DNA of 54,053 nucleotides, taken from positions 1 through 54,053 of the forward strand of contig JAQCAD010000019.1 of NCBI GenBank assembly GCA_027621915.1. Reading direction: 5' to 3'. Source of the DNA: Pseudomonadota bacterium. GTDB taxonomy: Bacteria; Pseudomonadota; Gammaproteobacteria; Steroidobacterales; Woeseiaceae. The position numbers were made by a program, and so were the translations under genes. This document shows, piece after piece, positions 33,804 through 50,965 of this stretch; the stretch's first letter is position 1; every line of letters begins with the position of its first letter. The notes beneath the pieces were generated by a model, which had not been told where the DNA came from, made no database searches, and saw only the letters and a list, made by a program, of their open reading frames with translations.

Positions 33804-36251
33804 ATGAGACAAAGCGTTCGACAGCTTCTTTTCGCTTCCCAGGCGCCGGTCGTACTGACAGCTTTGCTCGCCATGAACACCGCGTTCGCGGAGCTTGATT
33901 TGAACAACGCATCAGTCAGTCGCCTTGAAAACGGTCTGACGGTCGTTCTTCTCGAGGATCGAAACTTTCCGGTGGCTAGTGTTCAAATGCTCTATCGAAT
34001 CGGGGCACGCGACGAAGTCACCGGCAAGACCGGGCTTGCGCATTTTCTCGAGCACATGGCATTCCGCGATTCGCAGAATTTTCCCAACACTGATGTTGTC
34101 AGCTCGATCTACGCCCGCGGCGGAGAATGGCACGGCTACACGTGGACCGATCAAACAACGTATTTCGCGACGATACCGAACGAACACCTCGATTTGTTAC
34201 TGCGCATTGAGGCGGATCGAATGTCGCGCCTTGTCATTGCCGAAAGTAGTATGGAAGCCGAACGAGGGGCAGTGCTCGCCGAGATGCACATGTATGAAAA
34301 CGATCCGTCGTCGATGTTGATCGATGCAGTCATGTTCACGTCCTTCCTCGCTCACCCCTATCGTAATAATACGATCGGCTGGGAAAGTGACATCGAAAAC
34401 CTTCAGCATGACGACGTTGTCAACTTTTACAGGTCTCACTACCATCCGTCGAACGGCGTTCTCGCAGTGGTTGGCGACATTGACAGCGAGCGGACATTGG
34501 CCCGTATTCGTGAATTGTTTGGCGATTTCGAAAAAAGGGCACCGACTGCACTGCCGGTTACGATAGAACCACTACAGGTCGGTGAGCGCAGGATACAACT
34601 AAGCGGCAACGGCGAGACCAGGCAGTTCAAAATTGCTTATCGGGCACCATCCGCCAATCACGCTGATTTCGCTCCATTTCTCGTTTTGCAAGAATTGCTC
34701 GGTGGCAGCTCCGGGGTCAGCTTCCTGCAGAACGACTGGGGCACGCCGATTCGGGATGACAGCCTGCTTACCGGCGCGGCAGATGATCTGACGACGTGGT
34801 TTCCACCCAGCGCGCAGGATTACATTTTTGTTATCGGTGGCTCGGCACCTCACGGCGTCAGTGAAGCCGACGTAGAACTGGAAATCGAGCATCGTGTCGC
34901 AATGATCAGGGGAAGTGCCGCGCACCTATCGACATTGTCTGCTGCAATCTCAAGAGTCCAGGATGAACTCATCTTTGATGTCGAAACCACCGAAGATGCC
35001 GCGCATCAACTTGCGTACTTCGAAGGCTTACACGCACTGGATACGTTTCTGACATTGCCGTACCGCATCGCGGCCGTGACATCGGACGACGTACAGCGCG
35101 TGGCGCAGCAGTGGTTGCAGCCGCAGCGTCGAACCATCGCATGGCATTTGCCACGCCGGAGTCCTGTCGAAACAAATACTGTGTCGATCAGCCCGGTCGG
35201 CGCGAAACACAGCGCTTCGACGCCGCATCACGCAATCGACAGGCAACCGCTCCCCTCCCCGGTTTTGCGATACCTGCGAGGGGGTATCCCGGTCATCGTG
35301 CAGCAATCCGATCTGTCAGCATCGATACAAGTGCAAGTCGTGGTTCAGGGCGACAACATTATCGCCGACCACGCAATCGCCAATTCACCCGCGCGGGGAT
35401 ACACGTCGCTCGTCGTGCGGCGCCGGGCAAACGAACTTGATGCAGCAGTAGGTTCGGCGCGGGAATCGTTGGACGGTGCGACTGTCGACTCATCGCGCGC
35501 GGAATCTGACTCCGACGATCCGGAAGCGCGTCTCGAACAAACCTTTGAGCGCCACATGATGGCAACTCACGCAATCGAAGTAGCGCCTGCCCTTATCGTT
35601 GTCAGCGGGAACGTCGACGTGGACGAGTGCTTTGCCATACTTGATCGGAATTTTGGCGATTCGACCGCGAAACAGGCGTTCGCACGGCCGGCCGAGACGA
35701 TCGACAACGGCCAACTAATCGTCAGACTCGGTCATCCGGTTGCGCAGGCTCAGCTAGGGTACATCGTAAACGCGCCGGGCCCGAGAGCAGCGCGCTACGA
35801 CGCCATCCGGATATTGCAGTACATCCTGTCACACGGTTATGAGGGTCGCCTGGGTAAAGAAGCGATTTCGAATCGCGGCCTTGCCTATTACGTCGACAAT
35901 CGTTACCACTCCGATGGCAGCAACGCGTGGGTGACGCTGGGCATTGGCGTCGACCCACAAAAGATTGACGCACTTAAGACTCTGATGGCCAGCGAATTCA
36001 GGAGATTGCTGGACGAACCTCCAACCATCGAAGAGTTTGAAGAAGCGAAATCCTATTTTCTCGGCCGGTCGAAAAGTGCCGCACAAAGCAACGAAGAACT
36101 GGCGAACGAGTTGGCCAGGCAATGGGTCTGGCACGGCGACGCGAATACCGGCCAGGCACTGGAGCGCAGATTGGCGGCGCTGACGCACCAGGACGTGCTG
36201 GATGTCGTGTCAGCTTTCACCAATGGCCTGACAATTATTGTCGGCGAGTAG
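33804..36251 (+). CDS. Exported M16-family metallopeptidase
   Basis: An 815-residue periplasmic peptidase with two M16 halves. A signal peptide (MRQSVRQLLFASQAPVVLTA to about MNTAFA) precedes the active half, with the inverted zinc motif HFLEH at about residue 83 and the downstream glutamate in EAERGAVLAEM. The second half (about 490-815) lacks the zinc site and ends with AQSNEELANELARQWVWHG. This arrangement matches PqqL/pitrilysin-like exported proteases that degrade small peptides and unfolded proteins. Its start ATG is 217 bases from the divergent heat-shock gene, so they share a control region. Confidence 0.92.
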   Translation: MRQSVRQLLFASQAPVVLTALLAMNTAFAELDLNNASVSRLENGLTVVLLEDRNFPVASVQMLYRIGARDEVTGKTGLAHFLEHMAFRDSQNFPNTDVVSSIYARGGEWHGYTWTDQTTYFATIPNEHLDLLLRIEADRMSRLVIAESSMEAERGAVLAEMHMYENDPSSMLIDAVMFTSFLAHPYRNNTIGWESDIENLQHDDVVNFYRSHYHPSNGVLAVVGDIDSERTLARIRELFGDFEKRAPTALPVTIEPLQVGERRIQLSGNGETRQFKIAYRAPSANHADFAPFLVLQELLGGSSGVSFLQNDWGTPIRDDSLLTGAADDLTTWFPPSAQDYIFVIGGSAPHGVSEADVELEIEHRVAMIRGSAAHLSTLSAAISRVQDELIFDVETTEDAAHQLAYFEGLHALDTFLTLPYRIAAVTSDDVQRVAQQWLQPQRRTIAWHLPRRSPVETNTVSISPVGAKHSASTPHHAIDRQPLPSPVLRYLRGGIPVIVQQSDLSASIQVQVVVQGDNIIADHAIANSPARGYTSLVVRRRANELDAAVGSARESLDGATVDSSRAESDSDDPEARLEQTFERHMMATHAIEVAPALIVVSGNVDVDECFAILDRNFGDSTAKQAFARPAETIDNGQLIVRLGHPVAQAQLGYIVNAPGPRAARYDAIRILQYILSHGYEGRLGKEAISNRGLAYYVDNRYHSDGSNAWVTLGIGVDPQKIDALKTLMASEFRRLLDEPPTIEEFEEAKSYFLGRSKSAAQSNEELANELARQWVWHGDANTGQALERRLAALTHQDVLDVVSAFTNGLTIIVGE

Positions 36252-36256
36252 CCGAC

Positions 36257-38803
36257 TCAGCGACACATCTCGTAAACACGCGTGGCCTGATCGAGGTGCG
36301 ATAGGATCCTGATACGTTCCTGCTCGTCGTTGTAGTCGCTGTGCGCCTCAACCGATTCCCGGATTCGATCTATCCAGGCAATAAAATACGCTGCAGCCTC
36401 GGGAGAATGCATCCTTGCTCCCGCGACAGATAGGTACACCGGGCTCGTCGTCGCATACGGATAGATATCGAAAATCATCGGATTTGAAGTGTCGTTCCAT
36501 GCCCGCAGCAAAAGCCAGCCGGGGCCATCAACAGCAACCGTTCCCTCAACTTCCGCTGAAGTACCCTCGCCACCAAGGCCAAACGATTTAATAACCTGCC
36601 CGTTGTATATCAGCTCGAGGTGATCCACTGGCACGATGGAACGAAGGACTGCGCTGTAACTCAGGATTGCATTGCCGTCCTCCAGGGCGACCTCGCCACC
36701 TGGACTCCTGCCGTTGACTGTCAATCCGAGCAAAGGTCCGTTCGTGGCCATTGTGCGCCCCGCCTTAAGGCCGTCGATCCAGGCGTTGCGCCGCTCAGAA
36801 TTTGTCGCCGCCTCCCCCAGCACATCAACATAGGTACGATTGATGCCTACCGGACCGCGTAATGACGCATAGTTTGCCATCGCATCCGTGCCGCCGGCTG
36901 CTGCGATTCGAATCCCGCAATTCAAAAGTCCGTACCAGACTTCGGCTGACGGCCGGTGATAGGCGAATCCGACAACTTCGTAATAATCCACCAGGCCCAG
37001 CGCTGCATCGACCGGCAACGCATTGGTCAGCGTTTCTTCCGTTGCCGGGTCCGGTGGTGCGTAAAACGGATGGACGTAACCGACCGCAGCGTTTTGTTCG
37101 CGTGCTAATCCGGCAATCGTTGTGTTGTCCGGATAGATGCTCGCGACGCCTGTACCCGGATATGCGGCGTAATCCGGCACCAACAGGTGACTATCAAGTC
37201 CCAGCAATCCCATGTGCCCCCAGTAACTCGTATGAAATTCCTGAGAATGCATCAAGAGGACATCCTCATTCGATGCCACATCCGGTTCGGCAGAAAAGTA
37301 GGCGATGTCGGGAACGCGTTGTTCCTTGTTCACGATCAGGTTAAATGCCACGTCAAGATCTTCTGCCGCCAGTTGAGACACCAGCCGATCCGGCGTATTA
37401 CGGTAAGCACCGCCATAATTCATATGTACATGCACGTCACCGCTCAATCGACTGCGCCACTCTTCGGGGAGCTCGAGGGCAGCCGGACGAACGGTGAGGC
37501 TATTGTCTGATCCTGCCGAGATGTTGAGCAATCGACGTTCGATCTCATATTCCATTCCGCGCCACACGGTGACATTGACGATGCCTGACGGAACCGTCAA
37601 TTGCGATTCACCGCTGGAATGAAAGTACTGCGTTTCAAATGTCGCGAGAGCGCGATCGAAGCCATCGTCAGCATGCATCCAGCTGTCCGCCGGTGCGTAA
37701 CTTCGACCATCCGACGCCATGACAGAAACCCGGGCCGCAGCAGGCTGATCCTCGCTATCTACGATCCTGATCAATAATTTGGCAACTGAATTCAGGTAGC
37801 GTCTTTCAGTGACGTCGAGTTTCGTCACCTTGCCGCCAACGATGTCCTGAATACGAACCTGATTGTCGCCTGACTCGTTGGCCACGTACGCGATCCTGGC
37901 GCCATCAGGCGACCACCGGGCGGCCGTAACGTCGAATTCCCCGTAAGTCAGCGGAAACGGCTCAGCGATTCCACCGACACCGGTTACCCAGAGCTGGTGC
38001 CACTGGCGTCCAAGATACGAGCTGTACGCCACACGCTTCCCATCCGGCGACAGATCCGGGCGCGCTTTCCACGACGTCTCCTCTTTGCGTACAAGCTGCG
38101 GCTCAGCATTCGCATTCAGCTCGCGACTCCAGATTGCACCAGTACCGTAAGGAATTTCCGGGTTGCTGACATACACCAGGCCGCTGCCATCCGGCAACCA
38201 CACCGGGCTTAGCTCGTGATCGAACGTACTGTAGTAGTAACGCGAGATCTCGCTTTCGCGTTCTTCAACCAGCGGCGACGCGATCAACCTGCCTTCGACC
38301 AGGTCACCGATGAAAACGTGAAAGCGCCCGGTGCCCTCGGTAGATACAAAAGCAATTCGGATTCCGTCCGGCGACCAGCGCGGCTCAACATTGACTCCGC
38401 CCGTGTCAGTCAGCTGCGTCACGGCTCCGGTCGCGATGTCGAGTGAGTTGAGTTCCATCGTATCGTTGTCGTAGCGCACAAACACGATCGAATTGCCGTC
38501 GGGGGACCAGTCCGGTTGATAGTCGTAACCCGGCCCGGCGGTGAGTTGCATCGCGATTCCTGAATCGACCGACTGACGCCACAGGCTGCCCTGCATCGAA
38601 TAGACGATTGACTTGCTGTCCGGCGACCAGCTGAGCGCACTCGGCCCGCTCGTCAGCTGCGGCAGGTACATCTCACGAAAATAGTAGTCGTGTGGCACAT
38701 CGATTTGCTTCAGCACGGGTTCGCGATCTGCCAACACCAATGATGCCGCACCAATCAGCACCGTCATCGCGACCAATCGAATTATTGTACTGCTCACTTG
38801 CAT
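36257..38803 (-). CDS. TolB-like propeller fused to CehA/McbA metallohydrolase
   Basis: An 848-residue exported protein. The open frame starts at a GTG at 39031 inside the M20 gene, but GAGGA seven bases before ATG at 38801-38803 and a signal peptide (MQVSSTIIRLVAMTV to LVLA) fix the start there. The first 330 residues form WD40/PD40 (TolB-like) repeats with the typical LSWSPDSKSIVY, PDWSPDGNSIVFVRYDND and ARWSPDGARIAYVAN units. From about residue 430 the CehA/McbA-type PHP-like hydrolase follows, with the metal-ligand sequence DVHVHMNYGG and further histidines in LMHSQEFHTSYWGHM and VGYVHPFY. Such enzymes cleave phosphoesters, carbamates or amides. It starts 49 bases after the M20 gene, so the two are probably co-transcribed. 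Confidence 0.85.
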   Translation of the reverse strand: MQVSSTIIRLVAMTVLIGAASLVLADREPVLKQIDVPHDYYFREMYLPQLTSGPSALSWSPDSKSIVYSMQGSLWRQSVDSGIAMQLTAGPGYDYQPDWSPDGNSIVFVRYDNDTMELNSLDIATGAVTQLTDTGGVNVEPRWSPDGIRIAFVSTEGTGRFHVFIGDLVEGRLIASPLVEERESEISRYYYSTFDHELSPVWLPDGSGLVYVSNPEIPYGTGAIWSRELNANAEPQLVRKEETSWKARPDLSPDGKRVAYSSYLGRQWHQLWVTGVGGIAEPFPLTYGEFDVTAARWSPDGARIAYVANESGDNQVRIQDIVGGKVTKLDVTERRYLNSVAKLLIRIVDSEDQPAAARVSVMASDGRSYAPADSWMHADDGFDRALATFETQYFHSSGESQLTVPSGIVNVTVWRGMEYEIERRLLNISAGSDNSLTVRPAALELPEEWRSRLSGDVHVHMNYGGAYRNTPDRLVSQLAAEDLDVAFNLIVNKEQRVPDIAYFSAEPDVASNEDVLLMHSQEFHTSYWGHMGLLGLDSHLLVPDYAAYPGTGVASIYPDNTTIAGLAREQNAAVGYVHPFYAPPDPATEETLTNALPVDAALGLVDYYEVVGFAYHRPSAEVWYGLLNCGIRIAAAGGTDAMANYASLRGPVGINRTYVDVLGEAATNSERRNAWIDGLKAGRTMATNGPLLGLTVNGRSPGGEVALEDGNAILSYSAVLRSIVPVDHLELIYNGQVIKSFGLGGEGTSAEVEGTVAVDGPGWLLLRAWNDTSNPMIFDIYPYATTSPVYLSVAGARMHSPEAAAYFIAWIDRIRESVEAHSDYNDEQERIRILSHLDQATRVYEMCR

Positions 38804-38852
38804 CTTGAGTTCCTCATGAGGGCGCTCGATCCTCGATCCATTCTCGCAAAAC

Positions 38853-40247
38853 TCAAGGTGTTGCCAGCACCCTGACCAGCCTGTACCAGTATTCCGTGGC
38901 GTCGTAAAACGACTGCACACGGATGCGTTCGTCCTGACCATGTGCCCGCATGTCGTCAGGGTTGTCAGCGATCGCGGACACGGCGTAAACCGGGATACCA
39001 GCATCGCGAACAAAAAGCCCATCGGTCGCACCAGTGCTCATTTCCGGAATCACCGGGATGCCAGGCCATATTTCTGCAGCGACAGACGTGACCGGATCAA
39101 CAACCTGCGATTGCAGGGGCGACGGCGGACTCGGCGTTGCCGCGGCCAGCGGCGATACGGTGACGAAATGTGGTGCGGCCAACGCTGCAATGACTGCCTG
39201 TGCCGCCGTACCGGACGACTGCGGCAACACGCGACAGTTAACGATCGCTGTCGCACTTTGTGGCAGTGCATTTTCGGCATGCCCCCCGCTTATCATCGTC
39301 GCAACGCACGTCGTACGTGCCAGAGCATTGTAATAAGGTGAATCGTCCAGTCGACGAACGAATTCGGGATCATTGTTACGCGCCAGGATGCCATCTATCA
39401 AAACATTCTCGGATGGCGGCGCCAACTCTTTCCAGGTTTCAAAAAAAACGGTGGTGGTCTCGTTAAGATCTATCGGGAAACGATACTGATATAGATCTGC
39501 CAGCGTTCGAGCCAATCGCGAGATAGCGCTATCGCCCCTGGGCCGGGAGCTGTGGCCACCAGGATCCAGCGCTTCGAGTTTGAAACTGGCGAATACTTTT
39601 TCGCTGGTTTGCATAACGAACGCGCTTGGGCGTCCGTCTTTCAACAACACCGACCCACCGTCCGTATTCAGTGCAAATTCTGCATCGATAAGCGGGAGAT
39701 GTTCGTCTACGAGCAACTGTGCACCCTCACCGCTCGATTCCTCGTCCGCGGTTAGCATGACGATGAGGTCTCGATTCGAATCGAAGCGTTCCTGCTTCAA
39801 CCGGATGAGATTTGCGACGAGCATCGCCGCACCTGCCTTGTTGTCGGTCGTCCCTCGCCCGTAAAAATAGCCGTCTTTCTCTATCATTTGGAAAGGATCA
39901 ATGCTCCAGTCTTCGGGCAACGCTTCCACAACGTCCAGGTGTGCCATCAGAAGCAGCGGCTCCCGGGTTGGATTGGTGCTCCTGTAACGAATAACGAGAT
40001 TCGGCAATTTCTCGGCTTTCGCGAGCACGGCTATTGCGTCATCTGCGAACCCCGCATCTCGCAGCCGTTCGACCAGTCCGTCGACCACGACACGCATGTC
40101 ATTGCCGCCACTCGGCGCTGTATTTACGGCAATCAGTTCCGCCAAAATCTCCTTCGCAAGAGCGTCGTTCGCGGAATCTGCGGCACTGCATTCTAAAAAG
40201 GCGATCGGCGCCACCACCACAAATAACCAACAAATTGTCTTAAGCAT
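38853..40247 (-). CDS. Exported M20-family peptidase
   Basis: A 464-residue zinc peptidase of the M20/M25/M40 family with a signal peptide (ending CSAADS or before). The motifs are AHLDVVEAL (first metal and catalytic aspartate), RGTTDNKAGAAML, TADEESSGEGA (catalytic glutamate), NTDGGS and a dimerisation domain. A terminal histidine in MRAHGQDE completes the metal set. The family includes carboxypeptidases and aminoacylases; the exact cleavage is unknown. It precedes the TolB/CehA gene by 49 bases on the minus strand. Confidence 0.9.
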   Translation of the reverse strand: MLKTICWLFVVVAPIAFLECSAADSANDALAKEILAELIAVNTAPSGGNDMRVVVDGLVERLRDAGFADDAIAVLAKAEKLPNLVIRYRSTNPTREPLLLMAHLDVVEALPEDWSIDPFQMIEKDGYFYGRGTTDNKAGAAMLVANLIRLKQERFDSNRDLIVMLTADEESSGEGAQLLVDEHLPLIDAEFALNTDGGSVLLKDGRPSAFVMQTSEKVFASFKLEALDPGGHSSRPRGDSAISRLARTLADLYQYRFPIDLNETTTVFFETWKELAPPSENVLIDGILARNNDPEFVRRLDDSPYYNALARTTCVATMISGGHAENALPQSATAIVNCRVLPQSSGTAAQAVIAALAAPHFVTVSPLAAATPSPPSPLQSQVVDPVTSVAAEIWPGIPVIPEMSTGATDGLFVRDAGIPVYAVSAIADNPDDMRAHGQDERIRVQSFYDATEYWYRLVRVLATP

Positions 40248-40329: not shown

Positions 40330-42726
40330 TCACCGACTTTCAGCGTTCCCGATCAGAAACGCCAGCCGTCGAATCAGCGCCGTGTGGGCATTTACCCGCT
40401 GCGACAGCGTGAGGTCAGCGGCGGGTGTTTCGAACACGAGCACGGTTGCTGCACCAGGCCCCGCTACGACCCCATCATTAACAATTACGATCTTGCTGCT
40501 CATTAATTCATCGATCGAACTGTCAATCACCGGGCCAATGATGCCACTGACGATGTCTTCGTCAAATCGGGTCTGACCATCCATTTTGATACCGATATCG
40601 TTTTGCCGGAGGATACTCACAGCTTCACCCGCCAGCGGCTCGGCGGCACCAAGCTCACCCTGTGAGTAAACGTACCCCTCGCTGATCAGATTATCTTCGT
40701 GCAAATCAATGCTGTATCGCGGCGGATAGTCGCCAATCGTCTTCATGATGTAACGCGCGATCGCATCTGCTTCCGAACTTGACGCGGCTGCTCGCGGCTC
40801 ACCTGGACTGAGCGGATCAGGAAGCATGTGAGAGGAATCACCGACACTATGGCCGTCGATCGATTCTGAATAAACCGGGACATTCAAATATCGCCAGTTG
40901 CGCACATAGCCTTGCGGATTCAGAAGCGGCAAAAGCACGACAGGATATTTCTCGCCAAGTTCAGCCAAGTCGTCGATAGCCGCCGCAATTGCATTGGGTC
41001 CCGCCGGTTCCTCACCATGAACGCCAGCGAGGAACCACGCCGCTGGTCCTTCAACAGGCGAGCGCAGTGCAATAATGGGCAACGCGATGCTGGTTCCGAT
41101 CGGTTGCGAATTCGCAATGACGTCAAGTTTCCAGCCCTGATCAAGCAATTTCTGATAGGCAGCGAATAACGACTTGATCGGGCGACGACCGTCATTAGCG
41201 GTCAGAACTCCGTCCGGCAAAACAACGCGCGATTCAACTACAAACGGCGCCGACTCAGCCATCGAATCGTAACCATCATCTTTCACCAACCGAATAACAT
41301 AGTTACCGGGCTGCAATGGCCAGCCCCAGGCAGACGTCGATTCGTCCAGTCGTTTTTGGCCATTGGGTAATGCCGCAATGTACGTCCATGCGAGCCCATT
41401 GTCGTAGCCCGTCTCAACATCGATTTCATAAGCCGCAAGATAATCATTTCGATTTCCCGGCGCGTTGCTCCAGCGAACGTCGATGCCCTCGCCCACTGCA
41501 AAAGACGACCCTGCAACGTCAACAGATGGTGCCGCACCACTGGGTAGAACCCAGAATTCCCTGGTCAGAACAGCGGTCGTCGCCGGATTTGATAGTTGCA
41601 CGTGGTAACGTCCTGGTTGGAACAGGGATTCGGGCACCGACCACTGATCCCGACCGGGCAAAACGATTTGCCTGAATATCGGTGCCAGTGTGTCGGCATT
41701 CACGATATTTATAGTCACGCCACCCGCAGTGTTGAATGTGATGTCGACGTCCGTGCCGGCCTGGTAGACCCGATGTGTGGTACTCACAAATTCAGGTAAA
41801 TCCGCCGGCACTACCAGGAACTCTGAGACGACTGCCCGATGGTCACTGGGCCAAGGTGTCAACGCGATCGCAACTTCCGGTCCATTGACCTCACCGAGAA
41901 TTTCACTGCTTCGTGCATCTGCGGAACCTGCAAACCAGATGAAATCAATACGATCCTGTGCGTCACTCTCGCCCGGCGCATAGGCCGCCAAAGGGGGGCG
42001 GCCGGCCCACCAGGTGAGCCCCGGGTTTTGAAGCGGATCCGGATGAACCGCTCGCCATGAATCCGTCAGGCCCGCGTCGGTCAGTACCTGGCTAACGGGC
42101 CAGGCGACCGGATAGCGCATGAATTTTCGTGAGCCGACGGTCGCATCGGTCCAGTCAGTGTGTGCGGGAGTGTTGAAGTCGCCGGTCATGAACAACGGTA
42201 TTCCCTGCTGAGCAAGTTGCGATACAGCGGACAGATAGGGTTCGATCGCCGGCATTCGAACAATCTGTTCGAGTTGCAATACATCTTCCAATGTCGCGCC
42301 ATCACGAACGGCATCCGGCCCATAAGGATCTGACGGCAGATGCACATTGGCGATGGCAATGATTTTACCCGGCTCGACTTCGACATAGACGTACCGGCCA
42401 TCCGCGCCAGGCGGATCAATCAGCGGATGTTTCGAAATGACATAGTTCTGCAAGTCGTAATGCCAGCCAAGCTCGTTGGCGAGCCGTTGCAGGTTTCCTT
42501 CCGCCTCCTGGATACCAACCACGTCGGCGTCCGCAAGCTGAATTGCCTTGACGACGTTGTCGAAACTGATCAGCGCACCGCCCCACTCGATATTGAACGA
42601 CATGACGCGTAGCCCCAGCGCGGCATCGCCGCTCTGCGGAAGTCGCGTTGAATCAAGCGGCGCACACGCGCCGATGCAACTGCAAAAACAAAGAGTGGCC
42701 AACAATCGAAGGGATACAAAGCGCAT
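40330..42726 (-). CDS. Nuclease/phosphatase (EEP) fused to M14-like carboxypeptidase, lipoprotein
   Basis: A protein of about 798 residues with two unrelated catalytic domains. The N-terminus ends CSCIGAC, a lipobox; ATG at 42726 gives that signal, while the open frame starts ten codons earlier. The first domain (about 35-310) is an endonuclease/exonuclease/phosphatase fold: MSFNIEWGG, QEAEGN, MTGDFNTP, RIDFIWF and PSDHRAV. Two Ig-like segments follow (about 325-530). The C-terminal domain (about 545-800) is M14/desuccinylase-like: AGVHGEE supplies zinc histidine and glutamate, SIDLHED the second histidine, and VFETP the likely catalytic glutamate. I know of no standard family with this fusion. 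It may degrade DNA or phosphoesters and peptides at the cell surface. Confidence 0.85.
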   Translation of the reverse strand: MRFVSLRLLATLCFCSCIGACAPLDSTRLPQSGDAALGLRVMSFNIEWGGALISFDNVVKAIQLADADVVGIQEAEGNLQRLANELGWHYDLQNYVISKHPLIDPPGADGRYVYVEVEPGKIIAIANVHLPSDPYGPDAVRDGATLEDVLQLEQIVRMPAIEPYLSAVSQLAQQGIPLFMTGDFNTPAHTDWTDATVGSRKFMRYPVAWPVSQVLTDAGLTDSWRAVHPDPLQNPGLTWWAGRPPLAAYAPGESDAQDRIDFIWFAGSADARSSEILGEVNGPEVAIALTPWPSDHRAVVSEFLVVPADLPEFVSTTHRVYQAGTDVDITFNTAGGVTINIVNADTLAPIFRQIVLPGRDQWSVPESLFQPGRYHVQLSNPATTAVLTREFWVLPSGAAPSVDVAGSSFAVGEGIDVRWSNAPGNRNDYLAAYEIDVETGYDNGLAWTYIAALPNGQKRLDESTSAWGWPLQPGNYVIRLVKDDGYDSMAESAPFVVESRVVLPDGVLTANDGRRPIKSLFAAYQKLLDQGWKLDVIANSQPIGTSIALPIIALRSPVEGPAAWFLAGVHGEEPAGPNAIAAAIDDLAELGEKYPVVLLPLLNPQGYVRNWRYLNVPVYSESIDGHSVGDSSHMLPDPLSPGEPRAAASSSEADAIARYIMKTIGDYPPRYSIDLHEDNLISEGYVYSQGELGAAEPLAGEAVSILRQNDIGIKMDGQTRFDEDIVSGIIGPVIDSSIDELMSSKIVIVNDGVVAGPGAATVLVFETPAADLTLSQRVNAHTALIRRLAFLIGNAESR

Positions 42727-42802
42727 AAAGTGAAACGTCGTTCCAGAAAGGATCATTAAGGGCTACGATTATCACCTGAAAACAGGGAGCGAGGCGCCTA
42801 AA

Positions 42803-44911
42803 TTGTCGAATATCAATTGTGCAAATCCGTGGCGCGGTCGAATTCTGCAAATTGCCGCAGTAATCGTCTTCGTTATTCCACTGGCATCAAGGGTGTTTTC
42901 GACGGACGCGCCCTCGCCACCCGACTATGGCATTGCCATGCAGGAGGGCTGGATTACCATGCCCGACGGTGTACGACTGGCCGCTGATTTCTACATGCCT
43001 GCTGGTGGCGCCGATGCGGAAAAATTTCCGGTGCTGCTCGAATATCTGCCTTACCGAAAGACGGAATCGCGGGCACGCAACTATTCGATGTTTTCGTACT
43101 TTGTCGAACGCGGCTATGTCATCGCCCGAGTGGACATTCGTGGCACAGGCAATAGCGAAGGTCGGCTGATTCCATACGAGTACTCTGATATCGAACTGGA
43201 CGATGGCGAGGTCGTCATCGACTGGCTGTCAAGACAGGACTGGTCCGACGGCAACGTCGGAATGTTCGGCATTTCCTGGGGCGGCTTCAATTCGATCCAA
43301 CTGGCGGTGCGAAACCCGCCGGCTCTGAAGGCCATTATTGCGGTTGATGCGACAGAAGATCTCTACCAGGACGATGTGCATTACATGGACGGCGTATTGC
43401 ACCTGGATTCCTGGGAGATGGCGCAGGATCTGGCCAATTCCCGACCTGGCGCACCGGACTACATTATCGACGATGACAATTTCAAAAACCGGTTTGATAC
43501 AGAGCCCTGGATGCTGACTTACAAGAATCAACAGAGAGACGGTGCCTTCTGGGACCGCGCATCGGCGCGCGACAAGTACGACAGGATCAAAATTCCGACT
43601 TTTCACATCGGCGGCTGGTACGACGGTTATCGCGACAGCCTGCCGCGCATGCTTGCCAACGTCGACGCGCCGATCAAGGCGATGATCGGTGCATGGTCAC
43701 ATGCCTTTCCACACGATCCTTATCCAAATCCCGGCATGGAGTGGCGCCATGAAGGCGTTCGCTGGTTCGATCAATGGTTGAAAGGCAAAGACACCGGAAT
43801 TATGGATGAGCCACGCTTCGCGGTGTACGTCCGCGACTGGCATCCGCCGGGTCCGTACCTCGAGTACGCACCTGGACACTGGCGTTGGGAAGACGGCTGG
43901 CCAATCGACCGCATCACCGATCGCCGCTTCTACCCGCAGGAAAACCACACGCTTTCCGGACAGCCCGCAGACGACACTGTGCATCAGTTGCGCTATGTGC
44001 CCTCGATCGGTATGGAAGCCGGTGGCCCGGTGATGTGGTGGGGCGATGTCGCGCATGATCAACGCCCGACAGATGCGTTCAGCCTCGTCTATGACTCGGC
44101 GGTGCTGGAAAGCGATACTGAAATTCTCGGCTTACCAAAAGCCGTGCTGAAAGTCGCTGCAGATGCGACACGTGCGAACTGGTTCGTGCGAATCTCGGAT
44201 GTCGCACCTGATGGTACAGTTACGCAGGTTGCGGGGGCCGGATTCAATGGCACGCATCGTAAATCGGCGCGAGAGCCACAAGACGTCGTACCCGGCGAGG
44301 TGTTTCCACTCGAGATCGAGATGCATTTTACGTCCTGGGTTTTCCCGAAAGGTCACCGCATTCGATTCGCCATTGCGAACGCACAATGGCCGATGATGTG
44401 GCCAACCCCCTATCAGATGACGACGTCGTTGCATCTTGGCGGTGCGGACGGATCGTACATTGAGCTGCCGGTTGTGCCGCCCGGCAATCGGCGAGCGCCT
44501 GCCTTTCTACCAATTATTGAGAGCCCAACGCTGCCGGGCTTTGAGTCCATCGATACCGGCACCAGCTCGGGCTACGGAGAGGTTTCGTCGGTCGATCGAA
44601 ATCCGCAGACGGGAGACGTAACGCTGAAAGCGACCAATACCGGGGCGACGCGCTTTCCATGGGGAACACAAACCTATCGTGAGGCGATCGTGCACAAAAC
44701 ATCGGATACTCACCCGGAGAACACATCAATGATCGGTACGCACCGCCTGGAAGTGACGCTGCCGAACCGCATCATTTTGTGGGAGGCCGAACTTTCGTTT
44801 ACGAGCGACTTCGAGAATTTTTATTACGAGTACCTTCGACGAGTTTCCGAGAACGGTGAAGTCGTAAGGGAAAAAACCTGGAAAGACAGGATTCCTCGCG
44901 ATTTTCAGTAA
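42803..44911 (+). CDS. CocE/NonD-type alpha/beta hydrolase (S15 family)
   Basis: A 702-residue exported hydrolase of the X-Pro dipeptidyl-peptidase/cocaine-esterase (CocE) family. The open frame begins with TTG at 42803 behind GGGAGCGAGG, and a signal anchor (about 14-33) follows. Landmarks are the LLEYLPYRKT segment, DIRGTGNSEG, the nucleophile elbow MFGISWGGFNSIQL, and the C-terminal jelly-roll domain from about residue 440 (LKVAADATRANWFVRIS). Such enzymes cleave peptides with proline or small esters/amides. It is transcribed divergently from the EEP-M14 gene with a short shared region. A 13-base tandem repeat follows its stop. Confidence 0.9.
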   Translation: MSNINCANPWRGRILQIAAVIVFVIPLASRVFSTDAPSPPDYGIAMQEGWITMPDGVRLAADFYMPAGGADAEKFPVLLEYLPYRKTESRARNYSMFSYFVERGYVIARVDIRGTGNSEGRLIPYEYSDIELDDGEVVIDWLSRQDWSDGNVGMFGISWGGFNSIQLAVRNPPALKAIIAVDATEDLYQDDVHYMDGVLHLDSWEMAQDLANSRPGAPDYIIDDDNFKNRFDTEPWMLTYKNQQRDGAFWDRASARDKYDRIKIPTFHIGGWYDGYRDSLPRMLANVDAPIKAMIGAWSHAFPHDPYPNPGMEWRHEGVRWFDQWLKGKDTGIMDEPRFAVYVRDWHPPGPYLEYAPGHWRWEDGWPIDRITDRRFYPQENHTLSGQPADDTVHQLRYVPSIGMEAGGPVMWWGDVAHDQRPTDAFSLVYDSAVLESDTEILGLPKAVLKVAADATRANWFVRISDVAPDGTVTQVAGAGFNGTHRKSAREPQDVVPGEVFPLEIEMHFTSWVFPKGHRIRFAIANAQWPMMWPTPYQMTTSLHLGGADGSYIELPVVPPGNRRAPAFLPIIESPTLPGFESIDTGTSSGYGEVSSVDRNPQTGDVTLKATNTGATRFPWGTQTYREAIVHKTSDTHPENTSMIGTHRLEVTLPNRIILWEAELSFTSDFENFYYEYLRRVSENGEVVREKTWKDRIPRDFQ

Positions 44912-44919
44912 CGGGATCC

Positions 44920-44945
44920 GACCCCTTATCCGGACCCCTTATCCG
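44920..44945. repeat. 13-base direct tandem repeat between convergent genes
   Basis: GACCCCTTATCCG occurs twice without a gap (44920-44932, 44933-44945), just past the CocE stop and covering the last codons of the PLP decarboxylase. The exact duplication suggests recent replication slippage. It gives the decarboxylase its final two codons. Confidence 0.8.
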
Positions 44946-46093
44946 GTGATCGTGACCAACTGATCGCTGTAGTGGCCGTTGAATTCCGTCCGGCCTGACA
45001 GGCTGTATGCTCCAATACCGGAAAACTCGAGGTAATCACCGGGACGAATATCTACCGGCAATTCGACTTCGCCTGGCATCGTGTCGGTTGAGTCGCAGGT
45101 TGGCCCATGCAGTCGAAAAGACTGCGTTTCTCCTCGGAGCGTTTTGCCGTCGCGAAACGCACGAACGGGAAAGCGCTCATGGCCCTTGAAGCGCAATTCC
45201 CAGAATATTCCGTACATACCGTCGTTCAGATAAAGACGCTGTTCCTTGCGTAACAGCACCTCGACGACGGCGGACAAACCCGGCGCCGCCAAAGCGCGGC
45301 CGGGTTCGACCAGAACTTCGCGATTGCTGGCGGGCGGCAATGTCGCCACGTTAGCCCGAATGACATCAAAATATTCGTTTAACGATGGCACCTCGAATCC
45401 CGGGTAGGATCTCGGAAATCCGCCACCGATATCGATCAGCCGTATTTCGAAAGGGAGCGCCGCAAGCACGTTTCGCGCCAGGCCGATGGCATGCCGATAA
45501 GCATCCGGACTGGTCACCGATGATCCGACATTGAACGCAAGTGCGGGCTCAGCGCCGGCGCCTGCAATCGCATTCAGGATGTCCGCTACATCGGCCGGTG
45601 GCGCGCCGAATCGGACAGACAAGTCCTGCATTGCCGACGGATGCGACGTCGCCATACGAGCGAATACCACCGATGATCCCATGTCGATTTCACCGGCCAG
45701 CGGTTCAAGACCGCTCAAGTGATCGATCATGAAATGCTTAACACCGAATCGGGATTGAGCCTCCCTTGCGGCGCCGCGCAACCTGACCGGGGTCATGAAA
45801 TAGCACAACGCATCTGGACAGACCTGCATGACCGTCTCGATCTCTGCCAGCGACGCGCAATCGAAATGCCGCACGCCACCCTGGTAAATCAGCTGAATGA
45901 TGTCCGGATAGGCATTGGCCTTGACGGCATAAAGGACCCGCCCTGGAAAACCGGCGACAAAGTCCCGTGCGTTCGCCTCGTAGACATCCGGATAAATGCA
46001 GTAAACCGGAATGACCGGTTGCAACGCGCGCAACATCTCTTCGACGTTTGCGAAACTAACCCGATTAATTTTCATCACGCCGAATCTGTTCAC
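44939..46093 (-). CDS. Type-III PLP decarboxylase (ornithine/lysine/diaminopimelate family)
   Basis: A 384-residue alanine-racemase-fold decarboxylase. PLP lysine is in LYAVKANAYP, the FDCASLAEIE and IDIGGGFPRSY loops bind cofactor phosphate, EPGRALAAPG binds the cofactor, and GPTCDSTD carries the catalytic cysteine of the partner subunit. This layout is typical of ornithine, lysine and carboxynorspermidine decarboxylases; which one cannot be said. It starts with GTG in a GTGA overlap with the M28 gene stop, so translation is coupled. An internal ATG at residue 7 is an alternative start. Confidence 0.9.
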   Translation of the reverse strand: MNRFGVMKINRVSFANVEEMLRALQPVIPVYCIYPDVYEANARDFVAGFPGRVLYAVKANAYPDIIQLIYQGGVRHFDCASLAEIETVMQVCPDALCYFMTPVRLRGAAREAQSRFGVKHFMIDHLSGLEPLAGEIDMGSSVVFARMATSHPSAMQDLSVRFGAPPADVADILNAIAGAGAEPALAFNVGSSVTSPDAYRHAIGLARNVLAALPFEIRLIDIGGGFPRSYPGFEVPSLNEYFDVIRANVATLPPASNREVLVEPGRALAAPGLSAVVEVLLRKEQRLYLNDGMYGIFWELRFKGHERFPVRAFRDGKTLRGETQSFRLHGPTCDSTDTMPGEVELPVDIRPGDYLEFSGIGAYSLSGRTEFNGHYSDQLVTITG

Positions 46094-47328
46094 TCAACCG
46101 TTGTTTCGACCAACGTGGCCACAGCCGACAAAGTCGTCTGAGCGGCATTCAGCCCGAGGCGAAAATCCTTGTCGGTAAAGTTGGTCCACACGTCGAGTGG
46201 CGTATGCCAGGTTGGATTCCAGCCGCCGCCGGTGTGGGCGCCCCGCTCGTTTTCTCGCAGGCTTATGGATGGCACAATATTCATGAACGGCGTGGAATCA
46301 GTATTGGTCATATGCGGACCAACAGTTGCCGGGTAGTCGGTGTTGTACGCATCGGCCGCTGCCTTGAATACGAATGCCAGTCGCATGGAATCGTCGGCCA
46401 GGTCCGATGCCGACTGAAACTCGATGTTCACGTCGGCTTCGGGTCGCTGGTCACGACTGACCGTTCCATCGGCGCGCGGTGCACCATGGTCCCACAGCAT
46501 CATGTCGTGTTGAATCATGCCCAGCCATTTTGGCTCCGGATAAAACCCCGAGCCCGCTGGATTTTCGATGCCCTGAAGTTCCTGGCGCTGTTCGACATAG
46601 GCACTGGAACCGTTTAGCCCCGTTTCCTCATTGTTCCACAGCGCAAAACGGATCGATCGCTCCGTCCGTACGCCCGGCGCACTAAAAATTCGAGCGAGTT
46701 CGATTACCAGTGCAGTACCGGAGCCATCGTCGTTTACCGCCTCGTTGACACCGTGACCGTCCATGTGCGCCCCGATGATGTACATCTCATCCGGCCGGGT
46801 GCTGCCAATCTTGGTGCAATAGACATTCTGGCGCTCGCCGTTAACCGGTTCCTCCGCATTGAGCATTCGAATCCGTTCATCCGGCTGTGCATTGAGATCA
46901 CGATTGACGCTGGTGGGCGCCCGATACCCGTAAATTGAAGACCCACCCGGTCCGCTGCCGTTTCGCCCGACGGCGCCCCCGGTCGGCGTTCTGAGATCTG
47001 GCATTGCTGTGAGCGGTGGTGCCGGTGACCTGGGAGGACTCGGCTCCGGATCGAACAGGTATGTCAGGCGCTCGACATTGTCGCAGCCGGCCGCAATCAG
47101 TTGCTGCTCGATCCAGTCAATCGCGTCGCGATTACGGGACGTGCCCTGCCGACGGTCGCCGAACTGAGTAAGACCTTTAAGCGTGGATTTATAGCTCTCC
47201 AGCGTCAGGCGACTCACCAGTACCTCGACCGGGTCCGCAGCGGCCTGTTGCGCCACCGCAGTATTTTTCGCAGTGAATGAAAGAAACACGACGCCGCAAA
47301 TCATGGCAATTCGAGAGTTGAGAATCAT
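46090..47328 (-). CDS. Exported M28-family peptidase
   Basis: A 412-residue secreted zinc aminopeptidase of the M28 family. The open frame starts at 47457; ATG at 47326-47328 is the first to give a signal peptide (MILNSRIAMICG to TAVAQQ). The metal set is seen as GAHMDGHGVNEAVNDDGSGT with the typical H-x-D and DDGSG, ALWNNEETGLNGSSAYVEQ with the catalytic glutamate pair, and further aspartate/histidine ligands in TNTDSTPFMN and THTPLDVW type. It starts an operon with the PLP decarboxylase (overlap of four bases). Confidence 0.9.
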   Translation of the reverse strand: MILNSRIAMICGVVFLSFTAKNTAVAQQAAADPVEVLVSRLTLESYKSTLKGLTQFGDRRQGTSRNRDAIDWIEQQLIAAGCDNVERLTYLFDPEPSPPRSPAPPLTAMPDLRTPTGGAVGRNGSGPGGSSIYGYRAPTSVNRDLNAQPDERIRMLNAEEPVNGERQNVYCTKIGSTRPDEMYIIGAHMDGHGVNEAVNDDGSGTALVIELARIFSAPGVRTERSIRFALWNNEETGLNGSSAYVEQRQELQGIENPAGSGFYPEPKWLGMIQHDMMLWDHGAPRADGTVSRDQRPEADVNIEFQSASDLADDSMRLAFVFKAAADAYNTDYPATVGPHMTNTDSTPFMNIVPSISLRENERGAHTGGGWNPTWHTPLDVWTNFTDKDFRLGLNAAQTTLSAVATLVETTVE

Positions 47329-47451
47329 GGTGACCCCGGTATTAGTCTGAGTATTTGTGTGTCCAAGCATATGCAGACGCGACGCCAAGGTCCAATCCAG
47401 ACCCACTGCTGATAGTATTCGCAGCCTAAAGCAATTCCGGAGAACTCGACC

Positions 47452-49593
47452 ATGCAACGCCCGAGCCCGATTGTTGGCCTCACCGTTTTCCTGCTCGCGG
47501 CCGGCTGTTCCGGGGGCAACTCACCAGAGTCCGTTGTGAACAATACTACCGAATCTTCAAACCCTTTTTTTGTTGACAGCGAACTACCTTACGGTATGCC
47601 ACCGTTCGACCTGATCAGGAACGAACATTTCGCGCCGGCATTCGAGCGCGGAATGGCCGAGGAAATGACCGAGGTAATGGTTATCGTCTCGAACCCGGAA
47701 CCCGCCAGCTTCGACAACACCATTGTGGCGCTGGAACTTTCCGGACAACTGCTCAGTCGCTCCCGACGTGTATTTTCCAGCCTCACCGGGGCACATACAA
47801 ACGATGCGCTGAAGGTGATTCAGAAAGACATGGCCCCGAGGTTTTCGTCGCATAACGACAGCATTAACCTGAATCCGGACCTGTTCGCTCGTGTGGCCGA
47901 TCTTTACGCCGTGCGGGAAACGCTGGGTCTGGATGCCGAATCGCTCCGTCTCCTTGAACGCTACTACAGCGATTTCATACGTGCGGGCGCACAACTTTCA
48001 GATGTCCAGAAAGAGCGGTTGCGAGAAATCAACTCGGAACTCGCTCAATTGGGAACGGCGTTTAGCCAGAACGTGCTGAGCGAGGTAAACGATTCTGCCA
48101 TCGTCGTCGATTCGCGGGGAGAACTTGCGGGCCTGTCGGATAGCCAGATTGACAGCGCCGCGGCGGAGGCCTCATCCCGGCAACTCGATGGAAAGTTCGT
48201 ACTCACGCTGCAAAACACGACATTGCAGCCGTTGATCACTTCACTGGAAAATCGGGCACTACGCCAACGCATTCAGGAAACGTCCGCGATGCGCGGCAGC
48301 CGCGGTAACGAGTACGACAATCGCGGCATTGTCACGCGTGTGCTCGAGTTGCGATCGGAAAAGGCAACGCTCCTGGGTTTTGAGAGCCACGCCGCATTCA
48401 TACTTGAAAATCAGACAGCCCACACCGTCAGTGCCGTGAATGACATGTTGGGCCGTCTTGGCCCCAGGGCATATGCCAACGCTCGCAAGGAAGCGGAAGA
48501 CCTGCAGACGCTCATCAACGAAACGGAAACGAAGCCATTCGAACTGGCGTCTTGGGACTGGCTTTACTACACAGAAAAATTGCGACAAAAACGTTATGAC
48601 CTCGACGCAGATCAACTCAAGCCCTATTTCGAAATTGATCGGGTGCTGAACGACGGAGTTTTTCATTCGGCCGAGAAACTCTACGGCGTTACATTTGAAG
48701 AGCGACCGGAACTGCCTGTTTACCAGGAGGACGTTCGCGTATTTGAAGTTTTCTTCGACGGGGAACCTGCCGGGCTTTTCATATTCGACGCCTACGCCCG
48801 AGACACCAAACGTGGTGGAGCGTGGATGAACGCTTACGTGTCGCAGTCCAGATTGTTGAACGAGAGACCCGTCGTTGCCAATCACCTCAACGTTATCAAA
48901 CCAGCGGAGGGAGAGCCGACACTGCTCACACTGGACGAAGTAACTACAATGTTTCACGAATTTGGCCACGCATTGCACGGCCTGTTCTCTGATGTCAATT
49001 ATCCGCACTTCTCCGGCACCAGCGTGCCGCGTGATTTTGTGGAGTACCCGTCACAGGTAAACGAGATGTGGGCGACCTGGCCGGAAGTGCTGTCAAACTA
49101 TGCCGTCCACTACCGGACGGGCGAACCCATTCCACTGGAACTTCTCGAGAAGGTAATTGCCGCACAACAGTTCAATGAAGGATTTACGACCGGCGAATAC
49201 CTGGCGGCAGCAATTGTCGACCAGGCCCTGCATCAACTCCCGATTGAAGATATTCCGCCCGCCGAGGCTCTGATGGAAACGCAGTCGAAAATCCTGCACG
49301 ATGCCGCCATCGAGTTCGACGCCGTACCGCCACGCTACAGCGCACCCTACTTCAGCCACATTATGGGAGGGTATTCCGCTGGCTATTACTCGTACATCTG
49401 GGCAGAGGTTCTCGATGCCGACAGCGTACAGTGGTTCAGGGAAAATGGTGGCCTGAAGCGCGAAAACGGCAACCATTTCCGCAAGTCCTTGCTTTCAAAA
49501 GGCGGTAGCGTTGACGCGATGGAGTTGTTCCGGAATTTTCGAGGCGCGGATCCATCGATTGAGCCGTTACTGGAAAGGCGCGGTTTGAATTGA
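47452..49593 (+). CDS. M3-family oligopeptidase lipoprotein
   Basis: A 713-residue zinc oligopeptidase (Dcp/oligopeptidase-A type). The N-terminus FLLAAGCSGGN ends in a lipobox, so it is probably exported and lipid-anchored; OpdA and Dcp are usually without this. The zinc site is MFHEFGHALHGLFS with the further ligand in EYPSQVNEMWATW. The C-terminal HIMGGYSAGYYSYIWAEVLDAD is typical of the family. ATG at 47452 fits the signal. It would cut short peptides released by other exported proteases here. A GCN-containing spacer before the HipA gene holds nothing of note. Confidence 0.92.
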   Translation: MQRPSPIVGLTVFLLAAGCSGGNSPESVVNNTTESSNPFFVDSELPYGMPPFDLIRNEHFAPAFERGMAEEMTEVMVIVSNPEPASFDNTIVALELSGQLLSRSRRVFSSLTGAHTNDALKVIQKDMAPRFSSHNDSINLNPDLFARVADLYAVRETLGLDAESLRLLERYYSDFIRAGAQLSDVQKERLREINSELAQLGTAFSQNVLSEVNDSAIVVDSRGELAGLSDSQIDSAAAEASSRQLDGKFVLTLQNTTLQPLITSLENRALRQRIQETSAMRGSRGNEYDNRGIVTRVLELRSEKATLLGFESHAAFILENQTAHTVSAVNDMLGRLGPRAYANARKEAEDLQTLINETETKPFELASWDWLYYTEKLRQKRYDLDADQLKPYFEIDRVLNDGVFHSAEKLYGVTFEERPELPVYQEDVRVFEVFFDGEPAGLFIFDAYARDTKRGGAWMNAYVSQSRLLNERPVVANHLNVIKPAEGEPTLLTLDEVTTMFHEFGHALHGLFSDVNYPHFSGTSVPRDFVEYPSQVNEMWATWPEVLSNYAVHYRTGEPIPLELLEKVIAAQQFNEGFTTGEYLAAAIVDQALHQLPIEDIPPAEALMETQSKILHDAAIEFDAVPPRYSAPYFSHIMGGYSAGYYSYIWAEVLDADSVQWFRENGGLKRENGNHFRKSLLSKGGSVDAMELFRNFRGADPSIEPLLERRGLN

Positions 49594-49660: not shown

Positions 49661-50965
49661 CTAGAACAGCTCAATGCGAAGCGCATTCTGTATTTTATCG
49701 CGTTGCAGAGCCGCCACGCTGACTTCATCTGCGTAGTCGGTCCAACGTGAAATTACCGATCGAACCTCTTCAACGATCGTTTCGGCGCGACCACGCTTCA
49801 TCGACACCGTCTTCGCACACTCTTTAAAATCCTGGAGTGTGAAATCGTCCCGTTTGCCATTCATCGACATCTGGTGACTCGATGTCCACAAGCCGGACGG
49901 CGCATAGCTGTAAACCACATCAAACGCCGGCGCCAGCGACCAGGTGCCTGACTTGTCCATCAGGAACGCAATGTTCTTCACATGGTCGTCCTGATTGCGG
50001 CCAATCAAATTAAACGCCATGCGTCGAAACTCTTGTTCGATCGAATCCATGGACAGGCCGAGTTCGCGAATCACGATGAAAGCCTGCTCGTAACTGCAGG
50101 CCCCCGGCATGTTGTAGTCGAAATGGGCAAGCGCGCCCAACGACTGCATGTGCAGTTTTTGCCCGCCAGGCTGACGGTCGAACCTCCGTGTCATAAAATG
50201 GCGGCGACCGCTTTCCTCAAGTAGCCGGCATTCGTTCATCGTAATACCCGCATCGACGGCCATTTTGTAATACGCGTATTCGATGACACCGTATCCCTGC
50301 GGATCGTCGAGTTCCTTGTCACGATTTCCGCGAACACCGTCAAATTTCAGAACCCAGTAATCGAATCCGTCGCCAGCGGTCACCTGGCCGGACCTGACTT
50401 CGCCCGTGGTCGAATTCCACGCAACAATCGCCTTCGCCCGTGCACCCCCTGCCGACGTGCCCACGCGAAGAATGTCCCGCAATGCCGCTTCTTTTTCCGG
50501 ATCGCTAAACGAACCCTGCAGGTTATTCCGGTGACTCAGTACGTCGGAGGCGAGGTCGACAAGATTGTCAACATCAACGCGAGTCGCCGTTTTCGATTTC
50601 GGACCAATGATCGGCGCGAATTCCAGCGCGCCCATGCCACGCGATCCGGTGTAGCAGAGTCGCTCGACCGCATTGAATGACCGGGGCGAACGGCCCTGCG
50701 TCGCCAGCCAGGCATCGATTAGTGCATTACCAAACGAATCCGGCAACGAGTCGGCCAGTAAACCGGGCAAACCATGAAAAGTCTGACGGGATAATTCGGG
50801 AAATCGGAAAACCTTTGGTGAAAGCGGCATCATCAGAGGCGCCACCTGGATGTCACTTCGTATGAAGTCACGGTCATACTCGAATTCCGCAACGTCTGCG
50901 TCGTCGTCGATCGCTACTGCGGCAATGGTTCTGCCCCATAACCTGACTTCTGCGACAGTGGTCAT
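49661..50965 (-). CDS. hipA: HipA-type serine/threonine kinase toxin
   Basis: A 434-residue HipA-family kinase. The phosphate loop is GTSAGGARAKAIVAW, the catalytic aspartate motif is GRNQDDHVKNIAFLMD, and the metal-binding LAPAFDVVYSY follows. E. coli HipA phosphorylates glutamyl-tRNA synthetase and stops growth; the target here may differ. The family length of about 430-440 fits. It overlaps hipB by four bases. The pair is the only clear toxin-antitoxin unit in the window. Confidence 0.93.
   Translation of the reverse strand: MTTVAEVRLWGRTIAAVAIDDDADVAEFEYDRDFIRSDIQVAPLMMPLSPKVFRFPELSRQTFHGLPGLLADSLPDSFGNALIDAWLATQGRSPRSFNAVERLCYTGSRGMGALEFAPIIGPKSKTATRVDVDNLVDLASDVLSHRNNLQGSFSDPEKEAALRDILRVGTSAGGARAKAIVAWNSTTGEVRSGQVTAGDGFDYWVLKFDGVRGNRDKELDDPQGYGVIEYAYYKMAVDAGITMNECRLLEESGRRHFMTRRFDRQPGGQKLHMQSLGALAHFDYNMPGACSYEQAFIVIRELGLSMDSIEQEFRRMAFNLIGRNQDDHVKNIAFLMDKSGTWSLAPAFDVVYSYAPSGLWTSSHQMSMNGKRDDFTLQDFKECAKTVSMKRGRAETIVEEVRSVISRWTDYADEVSVAALQRDKIQNALRIELF

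Follow-up and report, generated by a model that had tools for sequence, protein, structure and literature searches.

Phosphohydrolases of the exonuclease-endonuclease-phosphatase (EEP) superfamily, among them ExoIII/NApe, Tdp2, neutral sphingomyelinase and the phosphatase BT3783, share one fold and one type of catalytic residues. Tdp2, the 5'-tyrosyl DNA phosphodiesterase, takes tyrosyl adducts off DNA ends, and INPP5J and INPP5K are inositol 5-phosphatases in which an EEP domain is followed, further on, by a SKICH domain. The described zinc hydrolases that bear on the present case are the aspartoacylases/succinylglutamate desuccinylases (PF24827), the cyanophycin dipeptide hydrolase CphZ and the Shewanella N-acetylornithine deacetylases; for the latter, cross-complementation showed that SO_3749 of Shewanella oneidensis performs the ArgE step, and it complements an E. 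coli argE deletion (PMC3219624). Here we analyze a gene that joins the two kinds of enzyme in one reading frame. It occupies positions 40330-42726 (minus strand) of a 54,053-nucleotide stretch of DNA, hereafter the window, from contig JAQCAD010000019.1 of a Pseudomonadota bacterium of the family Woeseiaceae (assembly GCA_027621915.1), and it encodes a protein of 798 residues, plus a stop codon at 40330-40332, with an EEP domain, two immunoglobulin (Ig)-like domains and an M14/AspA-type zinc hydrolase domain.

Two hydrolase domains and two Ig-like domains in a single protein

The frame of the fusion gene is free of internal stops from the ATG at 42726. The program-made list of open reading frames (ORFs) starts it 10 codons upstream, at an in-frame ATG at 42756; homologues, however, align from about 42726 and not from the upstream ATG. 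The gene is further backed by Pfam matches and by a full-length homologue of 63-64% identity in a second genome, G007 (G numbers denote genomes, G000 being the source genome, and L numbers the loci compared). Residues 1-21 (42664-42726, minus strand) read by eye as a signal peptide with a lipobox-like ..CIGAC motif and Cys21, and a Cys at about this place is also present in the G007 protein and in 7 of the 9 EEP-only rows of the alignment. The first-pass annotation had described one lipoprotein in which both domains keep their catalytic motifs and are joined by Ig-like segments. The single chain is confirmed, with all four domains behind one lipoprotein-type signal, and the protein is probably a lipoprotein, likely anchored at the cell surface, as far as the signal can be judged from its letters.

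The EEP domain (residues 37-306; 41809-42618, minus strand) scores 48.3 bits with the Pfam model Exo_endo_phos, PF03372, and so passes its cut-off of 24.5 (residues 42-296; E 1.4e-12). When the structure model of the whole protein, built from 36 aligned sequences (mean pLDDT 89.9, pTM 0.77), was compared with solved structures, its N-terminal half best matched the Beutenbergia EEP 4ruw (Z 21.6 over 220 residues; root-mean-square deviation, rmsd, 3.4). Further matches were Tdp2 (4gyz, Z 20.9), human neutral sphingomyelinase (20.2) and BT3783 (19.6), with Bacteroides EEPs also among them. The residues N45, E74, H129, D183, N185, D261, D295 and H296, which we take from the EEP family at large to be the catalytic Asn, Glu, His, Asp/Asn, Asp and Asp-His set, are invariant in 11 of 11 EEP rows. 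Because Tdp2 is level with the other EEPs, within about one Z unit of 4ruw, the Bacteroides EEPs and neutral sphingomyelinase, the modelled fold gives no choice of EEP substrate. In contrast to the superfamily members named above, the protein is probably exported and carries two Ig-like domains and a joined zinc hydrolase.

Modelled separately, residues 307-498 form two beta-sandwich domains (pLDDT 92.0), which bears out the Ig-like segments of the first-pass annotation. The first (residues 307-400; 41527-41808, minus strand), assigned from the structure model and fold matches, resembles complement C3 (8oq3, Z 11.6) and alpha-2-macroglobulin (2p9r, Z 11.5), the matched part being presumably the region of their second macroglobulin domain. 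The second (residues 401-498; 41233-41526, minus strand) was assigned from its fold, which resembles the SKICH domain of NDP52 (7eaa, Z 11.4 over 93 residues; 3vvv, 10.8); SKICH was absent from the Pfam matches of 11 members and from the sequence matches in the PDB. As modelled, the protein resembles the EEP-SKICH inositol 5-phosphatases in the order of an EEP domain and, further on, a SKICH-fold-like domain, but differs from them in the additional Ig-like domain in between and in the missing SKICH sequence match. This modelled likeness is possibly a mere resemblance among Ig folds.

The M14/AspA-type domain (residues 517-798; 40333-41178, minus strand) is a remote member of its group by sequence, confirmed by its modelled fold. 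Its top Pfam family, AstE_AspA_cat (PF24827, residues 560-678), scores 23.2 bits, slightly below the cut-off of 25, which the homologue in locus L053 passes with 27.7 bits; Peptidase_M14 (PF00246) scores 16.3 bits, below its cut-off of 21.6. The closest solved structures are of three putative metallopeptidases from Shewanella: 2qvp (Z 28.3, rmsd 2.5, 248 residues aligned), 3ieh (Z 27.6) and 3b2y (Z 27.1); CphZ (8ein) is a Foldseek match with an E-value of 3e-7, and human CPA4 matches with a Z of about 20. H570, E573 and H676 are invariant in all 23 M14 rows, and E766 is so in 22 of them, the remaining row having a gap there; we take the first three to be zinc ligands, in the arrangement HxxE plus His, and E766 to be the general-base Glu. 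Thus, both domains hold their catalytic motifs, as had been claimed for them.

What this zinc site acts on is less clear-cut. The best NCBIfam match is the Shewanella N-acetylornithine deacetylase model NF052223, which by its name would represent the SO_3749 family and to which 2qvp, 3ieh and 3b2y would also belong. The score of 25.3 bits (33.1 in L025) does not reach the equivalog cut-off of 400 and indicates kinship rather than membership. With these Shewanella proteins the domain shares its fold (Z 27-28) and the HGEE and HED motifs, whereas identity to 2qvp, 3ieh and 3b2y is 22-23% and the fusion protein is probably exported and joined to an EEP domain. The Shewanella deacetylases seem to be its nearest characterized relatives, and the domain may, judging by sequence, be an N-acyl-amino-acid deacylase instead of a carboxypeptidase, the two being about equally likely. 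A carboxypeptidase proper, to which we give slightly less than an even chance and which is compatible with every reading of the fusion discussed below, would agree with the M14 fold, including the CPA4 match, and with the many peptidase genes around the fusion in the window and in G007. It agrees less well with the Shewanella structures and deacetylase model being the closest matches, SO_3749 being an acetylornithine deacetylase that complements an argE deletion (PMC3219624). A further point against it is an S-V-G-D stretch, invariant in 23 of 23 rows. By eye, the stretch stands in place of the Asn-Arg pair, which was not seen at its expected position; we assume this position to be where classical carboxypeptidases have that carboxylate-binding pair. 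Accordingly, the term M14-like peptidase used at first holds for fold and motifs but is perhaps too specific, the nearest named family being a deacylase. Relatives of this M14 family with 34-47% identity and open frames of about 290-380 residues also occur in Patescibacteria-type bacteria and DPANN-type archaea (L065, L071, L072, L075-L078, L082, L084, L088, L090, L093, L094 and L101).

Distribution and origin of the fusion

The source genome, a draft assembly of 101 contigs, holds a single copy of the fusion. Among 40 relative genomes, the source included, one other has it in full length: G007, of the same genus, the metagenome-assembled genome (MAG) Woeseiaceae bacterium Ww310, in which the fusion (locus L068; open frame of 807) is 64% identical over residues 7-796. 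The fusion query matched 18 of 107 genomes of the family; outside G000 and G007, these matches were proteins with one of the halves, or EEP proteins of a shorter kind. EEP-only genes, which encode about 490-540 residues, were found in G003, G014, G016, G017, G022, G052, G105 and G107. M14-only genes were found in G012 and, broken up over two contigs each, in G079 and G097, whereas the M14-only reading in G002 is incomplete. With the E-value limits applied, and with the source genome counted in family, order and class, whole-genome matches amounted to 18/107 in the family, 24/396 in the order, 2/369 in the class (whole-protein query) and 10/217 in the family of G247.

When the genome_contigs collection was scanned with the M14 half, 94 relatives were confirmed and 80 of them kept; only one of these 80, L068, has an EEP domain in frame. 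The scan used two motifs as patterns, so that M14 proteins without them would escape it, and some M14 loci (L061 and L095, for example) end at a contig edge near the match, where an EEP domain could be missed. When 194 loci were re-checked, those of G000 and G007 were again the only ones in which EEP and M14 share a frame. The long EEP frame of L158 and the long 5' parts of L087 and L097 resembled fusions but were set aside, since by eye they are other genes out of frame. Plasmid (17) and phage (3) records gave EEP-side matches only, none covering more than 80% of the query. Of 1277 matches in a viral structure library, the 50 listed included no named protein with both domains, and the long alignments there had an rmsd of about 20 or higher. 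Based on the single in-frame case among 80 M14 relatives, we reject a widespread standard architecture. The first supposition that no standard family has this design is likewise supported: no matched Pfam or NCBIfam model covers it, and literature searches aimed at the EEP-M14 design gave no report among the matches listed, one of which deals with domain shuffling in vertebrates.

The first-pass annotation had also reasoned that absence of the fusion from all relatives would imply a local gene-joining or an error. G007 shows that it is not absent from all of them; with only two genomes fused and the halves separate elsewhere, the result nevertheless comes near to this, and the joining is lineage-specific. 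That the gene merely results from faulty assembly or annotation, through a chimeric contig or an overlooked stop codon for instance, would be in keeping with the draft state of the source assembly, but we reject this as exceedingly improbable: the same fusion recurs, together with a shared gene neighbourhood, in the divergent genome G007, the frame has no stop, and there is codon-level constraint on either side of the junction. This constraint is apparent from G000 and G007, which differ at 66% of fourfold-degenerate third positions in the EEP half (70 sites) and 63% in the M14 half (80 sites), as opposed to 17% and 13%, respectively, of second codon positions. With silent sites near saturation and second positions conserved, both halves must be under strong purifying selection.

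In trees of rows chosen from the loci at hand, the two fusions are sisters both by their EEP halves (17 rows; support 99/98) and by their M14 halves (23 rows; support 100/99). The M14 tree has eight open forks and a long-branch warning for L065 and L067, none of which affects the G000-G007 pair. Since both halves group the two fusions together, one joining event fits; the fusion is real, old and vertically kept, and probably has a single origin in one Woeseiaceae lineage.

The manner of joining can be read from the junction (residues 499-516; 41179-41232, minus strand), which aligns without gaps between the two fusions and is where EEP-only proteins finish and mature M14-only proteins start. 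Most EEP-only proteins of the family stop near '..AES.PF' plus about three residues, and close M14-only relatives (L026, L008, L031, L053, L060 and L063) have by eye their own signal-like start, after which they run into '..DGR.PI..LY' or similar. In the fusion, the EEP-Ig part runs into M14 across the 18 junction residues, with neither the stop codon of EEP-Ig nor the signal peptide of M14 remaining. Thus, an EEP-Ig gene would have lost its stop codon and run into an M14 gene whose signal peptide was lost, probably once, and the single N-terminal signal with its lipobox-like Cys21 would then serve both enzymes.

Such a joining need not have brought any gain. A deletion may simply have put both genes in frame, both activities surviving without any coupling, a possibility that we rank second and hold to be rather unlikely, although not to be dismissed lightly. 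It finds support in the trees, which give one event in one genus, and in the other relatives found, which manage without the fusion. Less easily accounted for in this way are the persistence of the joint, which has neither split again nor gained gaps at the junction although the two proteins have diverged at about 36% of their residues, and the further fusions in both families described below.

Gene neighbourhood and further fusions

The fusion gene lies among peptidase and hydrolase genes. Downstream on the same strand, the next gene encodes an M20 peptidase (38853-40247, minus strand; PF01546, E 1.8e-30; NF006596, 524.6 bits), followed by a TolB-like propeller and CehA/McbA metallohydrolase in one protein (36257-39031, minus strand; PF07676; NF038032, 210 bits), homologues of which occur in G007 and, as far as the part seen goes, in G012, and by an M16 peptidase (33804-36251, plus strand; Pfam). 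On the other side, the divergent neighbour is an S15 CocE/NonD hydrolase (42803-44911, plus strand; Pfam and NCBIfam). Beyond it lie a pyridoxal phosphate (PLP)-dependent Orn/DAP/Arg-type decarboxylase (44939-46093, minus strand; Pfam), with homologues adjoining the G007 fusion and the M14 gene in L057, an M28 peptidase (46090-47457, minus strand; Pfam), also found near the G007 fusion, and an M3 (Dcp-type) peptidase (47452-49593, plus strand; Pfam and NCBIfam), which also adjoins the G007 fusion. Farther away are genes for M19, M1, an amino-acid permease, a family-3 solute-binding ABC transporter and an aminotransferase. The G007 neighbours homologous to those of the window are M28 (82%), M3 (75%), the PLP decarboxylase (69%), CehA (76%) and M16 (65%).

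Neighbours were further surveyed on chosen loci, namely, 18 EEP loci against the ORFs of the window, ten EEP neighbour proteins in Pfam, and eight M14-only loci. Stand-alone M14 genes keep part of this company: M16 follows directly in G097, and with one 168-residue ORF in between in G079, and the G012 gene shares its stretch with CehA, M16 and M20. Four of the eight M14-only loci, inspected for one neighbour each, have M3 (L066), S58 (L057 and L086) or DUF885 (L052). The EEP loci do so less clearly, as only 4 of 18 hold a gene related to the peptidases or hydrolases of the window: S15 in divergent orientation in G052, S15 about 3 kb off in G017, M20 in G295, and a weak match in G022. Amidohydro_3 genes adjoin the EEP gene in G105 and G022 and lie one gene away in G014, and the neighbour in G016 has what we take to be the look of an HtpX-type peptidase. 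In G295, an M20 domain fused to an amidohydrolase (L174:6237-9026) lies directly before the EEP-Ig gene and touches it.

Both families have been joined to other partners as well. An M14 domain stands in front of S15 CocE/NonD in one 995-residue frame (L053:4905-7889) and, as read by eye as far as the contig extends, in L054:4073-5449, S15 being the family divergently beside the window fusion; M14 also stands in front of DUF885 (L081:4860-7610) and behind an amino-acid permease (L092:3591-5891). In another family of the order, EEP-Ig-Ig follows a 460-residue HExxH-bearing domain (G247; L180:8002-10878), and G316 has the same HExxH-EEP-Ig fusion up to the contig end, with the last 85 residues of that domain (L181:3027-4778). 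This domain, which has weak Pfam matches to M32 (E 0.016) and M3 (E 0.08), occurs in 42 of 217 genomes of G247's family, including 4 of the 10 that hold EEP-Ig, where it is fused in G247 and G316 and on separate contigs in G182 and G192. All 12 loci of the domain checked, G247 included, have HExxH, and E-A-F-A-D follows shortly after in 11 of them; in L192 there is F-A-D alone, the aligned stretch being apparently interrupted. As judged by these sequences, the EEP-Ig family has apparently been joined twice, independently, to a metallohydrolase-like partner.

What the joining may be for

The reading that we consider most likely, with somewhat more than an even chance, is that the fusion bundles two scavenging hydrolases, both exported and each acting on a substrate of its own. 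The signal would be cleaved and Cys21 lipidated, which would place the protein on an envelope membrane, outside the cytoplasm. There, the metal-dependent EEP site would cut a phosphodiester or phosphomonoester, the two Ig-like domains would act as spacer or binding modules, and the zinc site would release an amino acid or an acyl group from a peptide or an N-acyl-amino acid, alongside the M16, M20, S15, M28 and M3 enzymes encoded nearby. The gain would consist in bundling and anchoring two scavenging enzymes that act on dead-cell matter, a role that fits the Woeseiaceae, which a published account describes as heterotrophs on polysaccharides and proteins (PMC12175321).

Several observations weigh against this reading. 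First, the fusion is found in only two genomes, and neither family has a member of known activity. Second, the surroundings are not uniform: the M14 gene of G002 has no window peptidase alongside; the neighbours in the other four of the eight M14-only loci are not peptidase-like (a sulfotransferase-TPR protein in L055, a metallo-beta-lactamase in L056, an aminotransferase in L059 and a Na/Pi cotransporter in L063); DUF885, the neighbour in L052, has no assigned function in Pfam; and 14 of the 18 EEP loci have no gene related to the peptidases or hydrolases of the window. Third, the distant M14 relatives L065 and L066 have by eye no signal-like start, and in L081 and L092 the fused frames were obtained by conceptual translation of MAG sequence. 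Fourth, the unfused halves co-occur in only one genome of the family, G079, which is the chance level (P 0.36); the value falls to P 0.023 when the fused genomes are counted. These sets left out G097, G098 and G106, which have the shorter EEP kind, and with G097 the overlap would rise by one. This chance-level co-occurrence, which speaks against an obligate two-step pathway, and the 14 EEP loci without window peptidases are also what one would expect if the joining were neutral.

It had first been suggested that the protein may process a conjugate, both sites acting in turn on the same molecule; candidates would be nucleopeptides, crosslinks of protein to DNA or RNA that dead cells leave behind, and phospho-linked acyl-amino acids. 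The resemblance of the EEP fold to Tdp2 (Z 20.9), whose function is given above, points in this direction. So does the fact that EEP-Ig acquired a metallohydrolase-like partner at least twice (M14 in G000/G007; HExxH in G247 and, up to the contig end, in G316), a recurrence for which a shared substrate would account. However, the Z of Tdp2 lies within about one unit of those of 4ruw (21.6), the Bacteroides EEPs and neutral sphingomyelinase (20.2), the additional fusions of M14 with S15, DUF885 and a permease fit a broader role, and the unfused halves co-occur at chance level. Neighbours and fusions tie M14 to peptides, and EEP less clearly (4 of 18 loci), so that action on one conjugate did not gain support, and we regard it as improbable.

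It is tempting to speculate along a broader line, for which we see similarly poor prospects, that EEP-Ig-Ig is a dedicated partner of exported metallohydrolases, the two acting on a common class of material made of phospho-linked peptides or acyl-amino acids. Its repeated fusion, with M14 at the C-terminus and with HExxH at the N-terminus, would then follow from this shared class of material. If so, the protein would combine phosphodiesterase and amidase activities at the cell surface, a type of bifunctional enzyme of which our searches found no description, and, should recurrent fusions mirror shared substrates, mixed phosphoester-amide compounds would be present in dead-cell matter and used outside the cytoplasm. 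Under the preferred reading, in which two scavenging hydrolases are merely bundled, the EEP-M14, HExxH-EEP, M14-S15, M14-DUF885 and permease-M14 fusions serve as linkage evidence for two uncharacterized enzyme families, and they point to a part in the use of peptides and amino acids, for the M14 family more so than for the EEP family.

Elsewhere in the window, a PfkB kinase gene with an N-terminal winged helix adjoins an Indigoidine_A gene (22408-24451), which we take to be a likely pseudouridine catabolism pair, and a HipA-type kinase gene lies near the peptidase cluster (49661-50965).

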